Program-made: the position numbers and the translations under genes | Shown: positions 7,778-11,779 of the stretch, piece by piece | How the letters are laid out: the number at the start of each line of letters is the position of its first letter | Position numbering within the stretch: the stretch's first letter is position 1 | From: Stagnimonas sp. | GTDB lineage: Bacteria > Pseudomonadota > Gammaproteobacteria > Nevskiales > Nevskiaceae | Direction: 5' to 3' | DNA length: 43,107 nt | Assembly: GCA_030652575.1 (NCBI GenBank) | Contig: JAUSQI010000108.1 | Span: 1-43,107, forward strand | Notes under the pieces: generated by a model | What the model saw: the letters and a program-made list of their open reading frames with translations, nothing else | Databases searched by the model: none | Told to the model about the DNA's origin: nothing

Positions 7778-7927
7778 TTTGAGTAGACTCCATTGGTGCA
7801 CAGCACCCCGAAAGCCTTGCATCAAGGCATTTCGCTGGCTGTGCGGCGGGCAGAAAATACCGTCATTGTAACCCAGCACTTTGCTGTTTTTGGCCGTCCC
7901 CCACGGCGCAAACCCCAACGAGTTCCC

Positions 7928-8605
7928 GTGTCCAAAACATTGTCTGACAGCCCCCCCGCCGCCGCCCGCTCACTGGCAGCCACGCCGCTCAACCCCTTTG
8001 TGCAGGCCACCTTCGTGATGTCGGCCGCCAAGCTCGATCAATTGCCACAGGACGAGACACCCGAGCTGGCCTTTGTTGGCCGCTCCAACTCCGGCAAGTC
8101 CTCGGCGCTCAACACGTTGTGCAACAAGAAGGCGCTCGCTCGGGTCTCGAAGACGCCCGGCCGCACGCAGCTCATCAACCTGTTCGATGTGCCCGGCGCG
8201 CGTCTGATCGACTTGCCCGGCTACGGCTTTGCCAAGGTGCCGGGCTCGGTGCGCAAGGACTGGGGCAAGCTGATCGGCGGCTATCTGGAAACCCGCTTCA
8301 ACCTGCGCCTGCTCATCGTCATCATGGATATCCGCCATCCGCTCACCGATCTCGACGAGCAGATGCTCGACTGGGCCAAGGCCGCCGAGCGGCCCTGCCA
8401 TGTGCTGTTGACCAAGGCCGACAAATTGTCGCGCGGCGCGGCAACCACCACCCTGCTGCAAGTGCGCGCGGCGCTGCAAAAATGGGGTGATGGCTTTACC
8501 GCGCAATTGTTTTCGGCGCACAGCAATATCGGCGTCGAAGAGGCGCGGGCGGCAATCCACGCGCATGTTCAGTCTGCAAACCTGGCGATCAGCAGCGGGC
8601 AATAA
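7928..8605 (+). CDS. engB: ribosome biogenesis GTP-binding protein EngB (YsxC/YihA)
   Basis: An essential GTPase of 225 residues that assists assembly of the large ribosomal subunit. It has a P loop ([14 protein letters not shown], about residues 49-62), a switch/G2 threonine region ([11 protein letters not shown]), G3 ([11 protein letters not shown]) and G4 (TKAD), followed by the G5-like FSAHSN. I chose the GTG at 7928, since the only in-frame ATG downstream (MSAAKLD) would cut into the conserved domain. The longer upstream reading frame covers the divergent promoter region. The N-terminus is about 15 residues longer than usual. Its stop codon lies inside the U-tract template of the opposing small-RNA terminator. 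It has no good terminator of its own on the plus strand. Confidence 0.95.
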
Positions 8606-8636
8606 AAAAGCCCGACAGCCTTTTGGGCTATCGGGC
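8604..8636 (-). terminator. intrinsic terminator of the small RNA
   Basis: On the minus strand GCCCGATAGCC (8636-8626) pairs with GGCTGTCGGGC (8620-8610) around CAAAA and is followed by TTTTTT (8609-8604). One pair is U-G on the minus-strand RNA but would be an A-C mismatch on the plus strand. The U-tract is also only on the minus strand, so the structure acts leftwards. The U-tract overlaps the engB stop codon. Confidence 0.85.
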
Positions 8637-8725
8637 GAACATCCGGCTATGGGAGCGCCGGAAATACCGCGCAGGGAGGGCGCGGGGAGCAGGGAAGGGA
8701 AGGCCGCTGCTCCGAAGTGATAGAC
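8604..8725 (-). ncRNA. candidate trans-acting small RNA with three C-rich loops (polA-engB intergenic)
   Basis: Seen on the minus strand in order are three stem-loops and a terminator. Hairpin 1 pairs GGAGCAG (8713-8707) with CTGCTCC (8692-8686) around a 14-nt loop containing CCTTCCCTTCC. Hairpin 2 pairs CCGCGC with GCGCGG (8685-8680 and 8672-8667) around CCTCCCT. Hairpin 3 pairs CCGGC with GCCGG (8661-8657 and 8647-8643) around GCTCCCATA. An intrinsic terminator follows. C-rich unpaired loops are the hallmark of sRNAs that pair with G-rich Shine-Dalgarno regions. Known context: E. coli Spot 42 (spf) lies between polA and yihA/engB in this same orientation, and the Pseudomonas sRNA ErsA occupies this interval. 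The architecture also recalls Xanthomonas sX13. The 5' end (around 8720-8735) is a guess, and no strong promoter was recognised. I see no open reading frame here. Confidence 0.72.
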
Positions 8726-8837
8726 GTGCGAATCCCTAAATAAGTTGCAAACTTTTTTGACGCCGCCGTCACCGATTCCGGACGGCCGCTTTCCAGAGCT
8801 TTGAAAATCAATTACTTAGCGCTTCTCTCGGGCGAGC

Positions 8838-8874
8838 AAAAAAGCCTTTGAACGACCGTTTATCGGCCAGCTTT
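8838..8874 (-). terminator. possible polA terminator
   Basis: Just after the polA stop on the minus strand, an outer AAAGC/GCTTT helix (8874-8870 and 8845-8841) encloses an inner GGCCG/CGGTC stem with loop ATAAA. A run of six T follows (8843-8838). The bulged geometry makes it weaker than the other terminators in the window. If real, it separates polA transcription from the small RNA. Confidence 0.45.
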
Positions 8875-8884
8875 ATGAGCCGCA

Positions 8885-11779
8885 TCAAGCACTTGCGTGG
8901 CCGGTGGCGGTATGTGCCGCATCCCAGTTCGAGCCGAGGCCAAAATCCGCGACCAGAGGCACGGCGAGCGGCGATGGTCGGCCACCCGTGCGGGTGTGCA
9001 GCACCCGCACCATCTGGTCGGCGAGCTGCGGCGCGAGTTGCGTCAAGAGGTCTTGAGGACCTTCGAACACCAGTTCGTCATGCACCTGCATGGTCATCAG
9101 CACGGTGGGCGCCTCGCGTGCCAGCCAGCCCTGCAGGTCGATCATGGCGAGTTTGACGAGATCGGCTGCCGTACCTTGCAGCGGCGCGTTGATGGCGGTG
9201 CGCTCGGCGTAGCTGCGCAGGCCCTGGTTCTTGCTGGCGATGTTGGGCAGGTAGAGGCGACGGCCGAACAGCGTCTCGACATAGCCCTGCGATTTGGCCT
9301 GCGCCTTGGTGCCGTCCATGTATTGCTTCACGCCGGGGTAGCGCGTGAAGAAGCGGTCGATGGTCGCCTGCGCCTCGCTGCGGCCGATGCCCAGTTGCTT
9401 GGCCAGGCCGAAACTGGAGATGCCATAGATGAGGCCGAAGTTGATCGCCTTGGCGGCGCGACGCTGGTCGCCGCTCACGTCTTCGAGCGGCAGGCCGAAC
9501 ACCTCGGCGGCGGTCGCCTGGTGGATGTCCTTGCCGGTCTGGAACGCCTCGACCAGCTTGGCGTCGCCGGAGAAATGCGCCATCAAGCGCAGTTCGATCT
9601 GCGAATAGTCGATGGAGCAGAGCAGATTGCCTTTCTCCGCGACGAAGGCCTGGCGGATGCGACGGCCCTCGACATTGCGCACCGGGATGTTCTGGAGATT
9701 CGGGTCTTGCGACGACAACCGCCCCGTCGCCGCCACCGCCTGGTGATAGCTGGTGTGGATGCGGCCGGTCTTGGGGTTGATCTCCAGCGGCAGCGACTCG
9801 GTGTAAGTGCTGCGCAACTTCGAGAGCCCGCGCCAGTCGAGGATGAGCTTCGGCAGCGGATGATGCTCAGCGAGCTGCTCCAGCACATCCTCGGCGGTCG
9901 AGGGCTCGCCTTTCGGCGTCTTGCCCAGCACCGGCAGACCCAGCTTGCTGTAAAGGATTTCGCCAAGCTGCTTGGGCGAGCCGATGTTGAACTCGCCACC
10001 CGCCGCCTCGTAGGCCTGCTTCACGTACTCGCCCATGCGCACCGCGAGTTCCGCACTGATGGTGCCGAGCAGTGCGGCATCCACCTTCACGCCAGTCTGT
10101 TCCATCTGGGCCAGCACCGGCACCAGCGGCATTTCGAGCTGCTCGAACACCTTTTGCAGCGCCGGCACCTCAGCGAGCTTGGGATACAGCGCGTGGTGCA
10201 GGCGCAGGGTGATGTCGGCATCCTCCGCGGAGTACTCCGCCGCCTTGTCGAGCGAGACCTGGTTGAAGGTGATCTGGCTCTTGCCCTTGCCTGCGACATC
10301 GGCGAACGAAATGGTCTTCACGCCCAGATATTTTTCGGCAAGCGTATCCATGTCGTGGCGATTGCCGCCGGCATCGAGCACGTAGCTTTCGAGCATGGTG
10401 TCGTAGGCGAAGCCCTGCACGCTGATGCCGTGCCGCACCAGCACGTTGCAGTCGAACTTGCCGTGCTGCGCGACTTTTTTCTTGGCCGGATTTTCGAGCA
10501 CGGGCTTCACCCGCGCGAGCACTTCCGCCATCGGCAGCTGCGCCGGTACGCCCAGATAATTGTGGGCGACCGGCACGTACCAGCCCTCGCCTTCCGTCAC
10601 TGCAAACGCGAGGCCCACCAAGCCGCACTGATTGCTGGCGATGGAGTCGGTTTCGGTGTCGAAACAGATGAGTTCGGCAGCTTCGAGTTGCGCCAGCATG
10701 TCGGCGAACGACGCTTCGTCGATGACGAGGATGGACTTGGTTTTAAGCGCAGGGACACCGGAAGCCATTTCTTGTGGACTGTCATTCCCGCGCACGCGGG
10801 AATCCAGTTCTGCACTCAGCGCAGCCGTCGTTTCAACGACCGAACCTGGATTCCCGCCTTCACGGGAATGACTAAGCTCTGTGCGAGAGTCGGCCGTCTG
10901 CACCGATGCGGTTGCAACCGCCGAACCGCCCACCTCCTCCGCCCAACGATTGAACCCCAGCCGCACATACAACGCCGCGAGAGCCGTCTTGTCTTCCGCT
11001 TGCTTCACGAGCGCGTCGAGTGCGAGCGGCAAGACCACATCGCACTTGATCGTAGCCAGCTCACGACACATCGGCAGCGTGTCGAGTGCTGCGCGCAGGT
11101 TCTCGCCGAGCTTGCCCTTCACGTCGCCCGCTGCGGCCATTACGCCTTCCAGCGTGTGGTGCTCGCCCAGCAGCTTCGCGGCGGTCTTGGGCCCCACGCC
11201 GGGCACGCCGGGGATGTTGTCCACGGCATCGCCCATCAGCGCGAGGTAATCAATGATCTGCTCGGGCGTCACGCCAAACTTTTCCAGCACCCCGGCAGGC
11301 CCCATGCGGCGGTTCTTCATGGTGTCGAGCAGGCTTACACGCTCGTTCACCAACTGCGCCATGTCCTTGTCGCCGGTGACGATCAGCACGTCCATGCCCG
11401 CCGCCTCGCCCTGCTTGGCGAGCGTGCCGATCACATCGTCGGCCTCCACATCGGGCACCACCAGCAGCGGCAAACCCTGCGCTTCGATCATTTCGAGGAT
11501 GGGCTTGAACTGCGCTTTCAAATCTTCCGGCGTCTCGCTGCGATTGGCCTTGTAGTCGGCAAAGATCTGGTTGCGGAACGAGGTGCCGCTGGCATCGAAC
11601 ACCACCGCGATGCGTGCGGTGTCGTGCTCGCGATGCAGGCGCTTGAGCATGTTGGCAAAACCGTAGATCGCGCCCGTCGGCTCGCCCTTGGCGTTGGTGA
11701 GCGGCGGCAACGCGTGATACGCGCGGAACAGCCAGTTGCTGGCATCGATGAGCAGCAGGGTTTGATTACAGTCAGTCAT
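8885..11779 (-). CDS. polA: DNA polymerase I
   Basis: A 964-residue family A polymerase for Okazaki-fragment maturation and repair. It has three domains. The 5' nuclease domain (about 1-290) carries the acidic clusters IDASNWLFRAYHA and VPDVEADDVIGTLA. The 3'-5' proofreading domain is intact: D374 and E376 in FDTETDS, and the later YSAEDADITLRLH. In the polymerase domain, motif A has D724 in SIDYSQIELR, motif B has RRAAKAINFGLIYG, and motif C has D901 in MQVHDELVF. It is about 35 residues longer than E. coli Pol I. The excess is explained by an in-frame REP-like doublet coding for about residues 303-333, in the linker between the nuclease and proofreading domains. The start codon sits in the centre of the perfect palindrome TCAGTCATGACTGA (11772-11785), and no Shine-Dalgarno is visible. 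lysA lies 108 bp upstream on the same strand; I see nothing recognisable in that gap. Confidence 0.98.
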   Translation of the reverse strand: MTDCNQTLLLIDASNWLFRAYHALPPLTNAKGEPTGAIYGFANMLKRLHREHDTARIAVVFDASGTSFRNQIFADYKANRSETPEDLKAQFKPILEMIEAQGLPLLVVPDVEADDVIGTLAKQGEAAGMDVLIVTGDKDMAQLVNERVSLLDTMKNRRMGPAGVLEKFGVTPEQIIDYLALMGDAVDNIPGVPGVGPKTAAKLLGEHHTLEGVMAAAGDVKGKLGENLRAALDTLPMCRELATIKCDVVLPLALDALVKQAEDKTALAALYVRLGFNRWAEEVGGSAVATASVQTADSRTELSHSREGGNPGSVVETTAALSAELDSRVRGNDSPQEMASGVPALKTKSILVIDEASFADMLAQLEAAELICFDTETDSIASNQCGLVGLAFAVTEGEGWYVPVAHNYLGVPAQLPMAEVLARVKPVLENPAKKKVAQHGKFDCNVLVRHGISVQGFAYDTMLESYVLDAGGNRHDMDTLAEKYLGVKTISFADVAGKGKSQITFNQVSLDKAAEYSAEDADITLRLHHALYPKLAEVPALQKVFEQLEMPLVPVLAQMEQTGVKVDAALLGTISAELAVRMGEYVKQAYEAAGGEFNIGSPKQLGEILYSKLGLPVLGKTPKGEPSTAEDVLEQLAEHHPLPKLILDWRGLSKLRSTYTESLPLEINPKTGRIHTSYHQAVAATGRLSSQDPNLQNIPVRNVEGRRIRQAFVAEKGNLLCSIDYSQIELRLMAHFSGDAKLVEAFQTGKDIHQATAAEVFGLPLEDVSGDQRRAAKAINFGLIYGISSFGLAKQLGIGRSEAQATIDRFFTRYPGVKQYMDGTKAQAKSQGYVETLFGRRLYLPNIASKNQGLRSYAERTAINAPLQGTAADLVKLAMIDLQGWLAREAPTVLMTMQVHDELVFEGPQDLLTQLAPQLADQMVRVLHTRTGGRPSPLAVPLVADFGLGSNWDAAHTATGHASA
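10781..10872. repeat. REP-like doublet (inverted palindromes) inserted in frame in polA
   Basis: Two 27-nt palindromic units face each other: 10781-10807 (GTCATTCCCG...GGGAATCCAG) and 10846-10872, its inverted copy. They match at 24 of 27 positions and are separated by 38 bp. Each unit is itself a hairpin built on ATTCCCG/CGGGAAT. In the polA frame it reads through as SHSREGGNP ... LDSRVRGND, a translation often seen when this repeat family lands in a coding region. No target duplication could be defined. No second full copy was found in the window. Confidence 0.85.

Follow-up and report, generated by a model that had tools for sequence, protein, structure and literature searches.

The DNA analysed here (hereafter the window) is a stretch of 43,107 nucleotides from a Stagnimonas sp. 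of the family Nevskiaceae, and belongs to a genome of 3.4 Mb in 177 contigs. Two ORFs, each compared with relatives by tblastn, frame the locus of interest: one on the plus strand at 7793-8605, which we take to be engB (yihA), and polA on the minus strand at 8885-11779. A small RNA of about 114 nt, recognised by its fold and by an Rfam match, is predicted between them on the minus strand (8602-8715), with polA as its upstream neighbour on the same strand and engB as its convergent neighbour. Inside polA itself, a palindromic repeat of the REP-like class lies in frame in the linker (10781-10867, minus strand); two relatives (L033 and L035) seem to carry other repeat-derived sequence in the same linker.

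Folding of the minus strand at 8602-8715, in the polA–engB interval, gave three hairpins, each with a C-rich loop, and then a terminator; the fold has a minimum free energy of -57.8 kcal/mol (z -6.55) that was matched in none of 200 shuffles; the plus strand, compared with its own shuffles, was weaker (z -3.60, 1/200). Stem-loop 1 (8686-8713, minus strand), which is defined by the fold and by helix covariation, reads from 8713 to 8686 as 7 bp, a C bulge and 2 further bp, with the loop region CGGCCUUCCCUUCC and the C-rich loop CCUUCCCUUCCC at 8703-8692. The next two stem-loops, both on the minus strand, rest on the fold, the family alignment and helix covariation. Stem-loop 2 (8667-8685) has a perfect stem of 6 bp and the loop CCUCCCU at 8679-8673, the commonest form of which among relatives is ACUCCCU; stem-loop 3 (8642-8662) likewise has 6 perfect bp, and its loop GCUCCCAUA contains CUCCC at 8655-8651. 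The intrinsic terminator (8604-8636, minus strand), found by the fold, the terminator scan and the family alignment, consists of an 11-bp stem at 8636-8610 and then six U. Its loop is without a C run in the window and in L047, a locus of the same genus, and is C-rich in the other aligned copies; one possible pairing loop is thereby lost in these two.

A sequence-only reading of this DNA had placed a C-rich small RNA at 8604-8725 with three successive perfect stem-loops and a terminator. The locus, the strand and all of these elements stand, but the first stem is perfect only over its outer 7 bp and the ends shift: the 5' end most likely lies near 8714, 6-7 nt after a -10-like element, and the 3' end at about 8604-8602, where it overlaps the stop codon of engB. 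The same reading had noted a wobble pair in the terminator that would form only in minus-strand RNA, and this pair was indeed found as U-G on the minus strand and as a C/A mismatch on the plus strand. A simple terminator scan returned a single site, on the minus strand; since shuffles of the region average 1.0 sites, the scan is not what fixes the orientation of the RNA, which follows from the fold, the U run and conservation.

The window had no match at Rfam's own thresholds. When E values up to 10 were considered, the best-scoring match was anti-hemB (RF02837) at 8602-8688 on the minus strand (42.0 bits, E 1.3e-8), which aligned over the whole model and yet stayed below the gathering score of 49.5 bits. 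RF02837 matches were present in 55 of 58 Nevskiaceae genomes (above the gathering score in 15/58), and in 3 of 14 control genomes, where none exceeded the cut-off; weak matches alone are thus no proof. Homology of the window RNA to anti-hemB was established through intermediates, as it aligns with relatives that score above the cut-off and as the helices of this alignment covary. Of the family matches, 81 were carried on (8 were omitted, all under 30 bits), and 68 of the 81, from 52 of the 55 genomes, lay in the fetched flanks on the polA strand or convergent with engB; the fetched flanks of three genomes (G001, G016 and G036) held no polA/engB-linked copy. The alignment A1 was produced with MAFFT from 73 Nevskiaceae copies, after omission of six dissimilar copies, one duplicate and one copy cut by a contig end. 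RNAalifold predicted 29 pairs on A1, and the comparative folding of relatives that had been proposed as a check revealed compensatory changes, both sides being changed in 21 of these pairs; 95.9% of the alignment cells were paired, against 84.1% after shuffling and at most 49.7% after sliding. At least twelve of the 58 Nevskiaceae genomes carry two or three copies close together (in one of the multi-copy genomes, G035, a pair 229 bases apart and a third match far off on the same contig).

These data bear on one rival explanation, a strong terminator with GC-rich hairpins between convergent genes and no regulatory role. Terminators are expected in a convergent-gene gap, but three covarying stems exist besides the terminator, the loop cytosines are conserved (the CCC of loop 2 is invariant across the 73 copies) and the unit occurs in tandem copies, so that this explanation is considered extremely improbable.

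Conservation outside the family was examined with a covariance model built from A1 (R1), which was searched with strict filters in 369 genomes sampled across the class as defined by GTDB. R1 matched in 117 of the 369 genomes, which represent 75 families. The window scored 81.3 bits with R1 and 64.9 bits with a second model (R2), values to be read in the light of its presence in both training sets; evidence independent of this training comes from the RF02837 matches in Nevskiaceae and from the flanks of the family and class copies. Flanks were examined for 122 R1 matches, among them that of the window; together these cover all 117 genomes, and additional copies within a genome were left out. 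Although the polA/engB position was not used in the R1 search, 99 of the 122 matches lie within 1.5-1.9 kb of polA and/or engB, as do 80 of the 95 that score 35 bits or more, and a polA/engB-linked C-rich sRNA is found in 99 of the 117 R1-matched genomes, from 64 families. The window RNA belongs to this family by its full-length model match, its polA/engB place and its C-rich loops. For the 23 remaining matches neither gene was found in the flanks, a few of these being close to a contig end; part of the 23 have short flanks, and others are probably false. In 4 of the 99 linked loci (L099, L104, L126 and L162) the sRNA is inverted at the same locus, on the engB strand.

A class alignment (A2) was constructed from 100 chosen loci (91 of 121 class loci, 5 polA-side loci and 4 from Nevskiaceae), a choice that excluded sX13, ErsA and a large number of weak or unlinked loci. 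On its 112 copies both sides were changed in 28 of 29 pairs, and 93.7% of the cells were paired against at most 52.0% after sliding, counts that lean to the R1 structure because A2 was fitted to R1. In addition, 40 polA-side loci, drawn from 80 R1-negative genomes among those listed, were searched with filters off: R1 gave an E value below 0.01 in 13 and nothing at that level in 27. The strict-filter search therefore misses true members, and some of the 117 may be false. Multiple copies were also seen at this scale, with five tandem sRNA copies beside polA in one genome (L218:263-1006) and four R1 matches in each of two others (G228 and G336).

The sigma-E/AlgU consensus consists of GAACTT, 15-18 nt and TC[TA]. 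Upstream regions were scored for GAACTT-N15..18-TC[TA], with base-composition shuffles (not dinucleotide shuffles) as controls. In the window the scan detected, on the minus strand, a -35-like element CAACTT at 8742-8747 (GAACTT is the commonest form in relatives) and, 17 nt from it, a -10-like element TCTAT at 8720-8724 preceded by G. The resulting CAACTT-N17-TCT (8747-8722) has one mismatch to the scored motif, and as its -35 is one base off the consensus the putative promoter may be weak. Among 74 distinct Nevskiaceae copies the motif is exact upstream in 40 (base shuffles 0.2%) and present with at most one mismatch in 67 (base shuffles 3.5%), the spacer of these 67 being 16 nt in 51, 17 in 15 and 15 in one. 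Across the class, 56 of the 122 matches carry it exactly (shuffles 0.1%) and 92 with at most one mismatch (shuffles 4.6%). It is exact, and in the same place, at the ErsA gene (L214), and transcription of ErsA was reported from experiment to be strictly sigma-22 dependent (PMC7565897). At the level of one mismatch it is absent upstream of the two sX13 genes (L165 and L178), of Spot 42 of E. coli, of an anti-hemB match (L172) and of a polA-side copy (L196), all of which differ from it by at least two mismatches; control by sigma-E is therefore not general. An RpoE model exceeded its cut-off in 57 of the 58 Nevskiaceae genomes, including the window's own; as it matched 2-23 times per genome, several ECF sigma factors may compete.

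The RNA could also be a C-rich sRNA with a metabolic role, of the Spot 42 or sX13 type, with an ordinary or growth-linked promoter, the motif being a relic or being read by another ECF sigma factor. In its favour, the locus is the one used by Spot 42 and sX13, no motif precedes the sX13 genes that R1 detects, the -35 of the window is one base off, and several ECF factors may compete. The high frequency of the motif upstream of both the family copies and the class matches speaks against it, as does a search of 8300-9100 for a sigma-70-like promoter, which found none, and we regard it as unlikely. A second possibility is that the RNA is no independent gene but a processed 3' UTR product of the polA mRNA with its terminator. 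It does follow polA on that gene's strand, and polA transcripts would end at the terminator too; on the other hand, a conserved promoter-like motif stands just upstream of most copies, tandem copies each have a motif of their own (for example both in G038 and both in G047), the motif also precedes copies whose fetched flanks hold neither polA nor engB (for example L029 and L038), and the orientation is inverted in four class genomes. This origin thus appears very improbable. A trans-acting RNA with a sigma-E-type promoter is the reading retained below.

Relations to named sRNA families were assessed with R1, with R2 (which was built without sX13, ErsA and Spot 42 loci) and with Rfam scans of 80 class loci. 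The sequence-only reading had suggested covariance searches with the Spot 42, ErsA and sX13 models. The Rfam models for ErsA (RF01719), sX13 (RF02232) and Spot 42 (RF00021) gave no match in the window up to E 10, but the searches did link its RNA to anti-hemB, to sX13 and, more weakly, to ErsA; that the nearest Rfam family is anti-hemB, and that the promoter-like motif is ErsA-like and not Spot 42-like, go beyond what had been proposed. On 39 R1-matched class loci (L036 being the fortieth source) Rfam recognised sX13 in two and anti-hemB in five (in one of them twice), and in 32 of the 39 no Rfam sRNA reached its cut-off.

Anti-hemB corresponds to ncS04 of Burkholderia cenocepacia, a 105-nt RNA whose ends were mapped by dRNA-seq and RACE according to PMC5688073, and it is listed in B. 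pseudomallei in PMC3521395. Its CUCCCU-type loop stem, second hairpin and terminator align with the window RNA over the whole model, and three polA-downstream copies of other genomes (L196, L198 and L211) pass its gathering score, whereas the Rfam model is without the first stem and the window stays below that score. Among the 80 class loci RF02837 scores highest at L172 (65.7 bits), a locus with neither polA nor engB in its flanks and no sigma-E-type motif. Another contig of the window's genome (C40) carries a further candidate RNA of C-rich hairpins that ends in a terminator (L068:1640-1772, plus strand), which matches RF02837 weakly (30.4 bits) and at which a pattern scan did not find the sigma-E-type motif.

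sX13 also lies downstream of polA and has three hairpins with C-rich loops, a likeness of design that had been noticed in the sequence-only reading and that the models bear out. The two sX13 genes overlap R1 matches (36.5 and 34.4 bits) and are matched by R2 (42.7 and 40.1 bits), in each case over the full model length, both models being untrained on sX13, and kinship of sX13 with the class-wide family is thus supported at the sequence level. Unlike the window RNA, sX13 has no sigma-E-type motif upstream of its genes. In sX13 three apical loops carry 4C or 5C motifs; the window RNA has three C-rich loops in which the C runs are three long, and runs of four or more C occur in loop 3 and the terminator loop of many relatives. 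According to experiments reported in PMC3771888, the action of sX13 depends on its C-rich loops and on G-rich sites close to mRNA translation starts, does not require Hfq and includes repression of hfq. The same paper remarks that sX13, Spot 42 and alpha-r7 RNAs have the polA place in common, and raises the question whether RNAs of this sort occur in other bacteria.

ErsA (Pseudomon-1, RF01719) resembles the window RNA by its position in the polA–engB interval (PMC8575079), its direction, the sigma-E-type motif, the terminator end and its C-rich parts. It is described as lowering the porin OprD, as acting with Hfq on algC and, previously, as a functional orthologue of Spot 42 (PMC8395346). It scored 19.9 bits with R1 and 27.4 bits with R2 (E 9.4e-5 in 87 kb). 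The best of five R2 matches in the whole E. coli record (strict filters) reached 27.7 bits in the bhsA region, a false match that indicates how high such matches can score; as ErsA is at about this level, its kinship with the family, which is most likely when score, place and promoter are combined, rests mainly on place and promoter.

Spot 42 (RF00021) has the place and direction beside polA that the sequence-only reading had equated with those of the window RNA, also citing ErsA for the same interval, and both comparisons hold. It differs by having no sigma-E-type motif and by the absence of a match between its Rfam model and the window. Sequence kinship of Spot 42 is unsupported: it scored 10.8 bits with R1 and 18.3 bits with R2 (E 0.013 in 87 kb), which is below the 27.7-bit false match, and it is not listed among the five strict-filter R2 matches in E. 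coli, while the E. coli gene scores 122.8 bits with its own Rfam model. Remote kinship to the family may exist. Finally, the double-hairpin or toxic sRNAs of RF02278 (ncS27, S17S) have CU-rich unpaired stretches predicted over ribosome-binding sites in PMC5688073 and PMC11722255; they share such stretches with the window RNA, but the window scores 12.8 bits against a cut-off of 50, and S17 lies beside coq7 and not polA.

That related RNAs are found at this spot in many families of the class suggests a single old family behind several sRNAs now catalogued separately. In the openly licensed literature, no publication was found that joins the anti-hemB, sX13 and ErsA families. RNAs of this kind are already known; the present analysis adds the member in the window, its promoter-like motif, the occurrence of tandem copies and a covariance model for the class.

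AGGGAG(U), which resembles a ribosome-binding site, is the complement of the conserved loops ACUCCCU and CUCCCU, and candidate targets were examined for such sites. hfq is an sX13 target by experiment, whereas the 27 hfq starts recovered from 30 Nevskiaceae loci and inspected by eye (the start in the window's own genome being uncertain) had no GGGAG, and GGGG in 2/27. AGGGAG was present at 4 of 30 csrA starts, the window's genome among them, and at 3 of 26 starts of FadL-type porins (27 of 30 loci, one of them lacking a start), a count that is uninformative because its background was unlike (mechanical ORFs, shorter stretch). At pilQ it was found in 12 of 22 starts (22 of 30 loci) and, with automatic gene calling, in 7 of 17, compared with 10 of 334 genes of the background (Fisher p 2e-6), a p value that ignores relatedness and concerns a gene picked because the window's genome carries the site; moreover, the rule by which starts were chosen tilts pilQ and background genes alike towards AGGGAG. 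By duplex energy, pilQ ranked in the top 5% in 3 of 14 genomes (one genus), with a median rank of 22% and a rank of 19% in the window's genome, so that pilQ is a predicted lead for some genera only. In one genus (L390, L401, L405 and L406) the pilQ ribosome-binding site CAGGGAGU is fully complementary to loop 2 (ACUCCCUG). The genome of the window contains 71 AGGGAG-N4..9-ATG places against 12 for the reversed pattern, an excess that mostly reflects Shine-Dalgarno sites; 30 of the 71 were examined, and 21 of these begin a frame of 60 aa or more. Target predictions are thus mixed and thin.

The structure, its conservation with compensatory changes, the position, the promoter-like motif and the link to anti-hemB and sX13 are computed properties of the locus. 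The RNA is probably an envelope-stress-induced, ErsA-like, trans-acting C-rich sRNA with a sigma-E-type promoter that represses through G-rich ribosome-binding sites. Transcription, sigma-E dependence, the use of Hfq, translational repression and the targets are proposed as follows. The RNA, of about 114 nt, would be transcribed from the minus strand under envelope stress from its own sigma-E (RpoE/AlgU)-type promoter, and its transcription would end at the intrinsic terminator. Its stable stems would display the C-rich loops, which may pair with AGGGAG-type ribosome-binding regions of several mRNAs and so block their translation, perhaps with Hfq, which is present in 57 of the 58 Nevskiaceae genomes. 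From the loop complementarity and the sX13 and ErsA precedents we infer such repression of several mRNAs under envelope stress, envelope proteins being the likely targets. The RNA would be one member of a polA/engB-linked C-rich sRNA family spread across the class, which would include anti-hemB, sX13 and, most likely, ErsA.

It is also conceivable, though we hold it to be somewhat less than an even chance, that the class, as GTDB defines it, inherited from its common ancestor a sigma-E-driven C-rich sRNA that lay between polA and engB and acted as a general envelope-stress repressor. Anti-hemB, sX13, ErsA and the many unlisted copies would then descend from this sRNA, and Spot 42 would either derive from it by losing sigma-E control or be its replacement. 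Given the polA/engB place, the motif counts and the loci that Rfam does not name, one can test directly, in laboratory species that pose no hazard, whether anti-hemB, sX13 and ErsA share an origin and whether their ancestor served in envelope stress; the covariance model of the family would annotate many genomes. The interest of this result lies in the connection that it draws, across the class, between named families.
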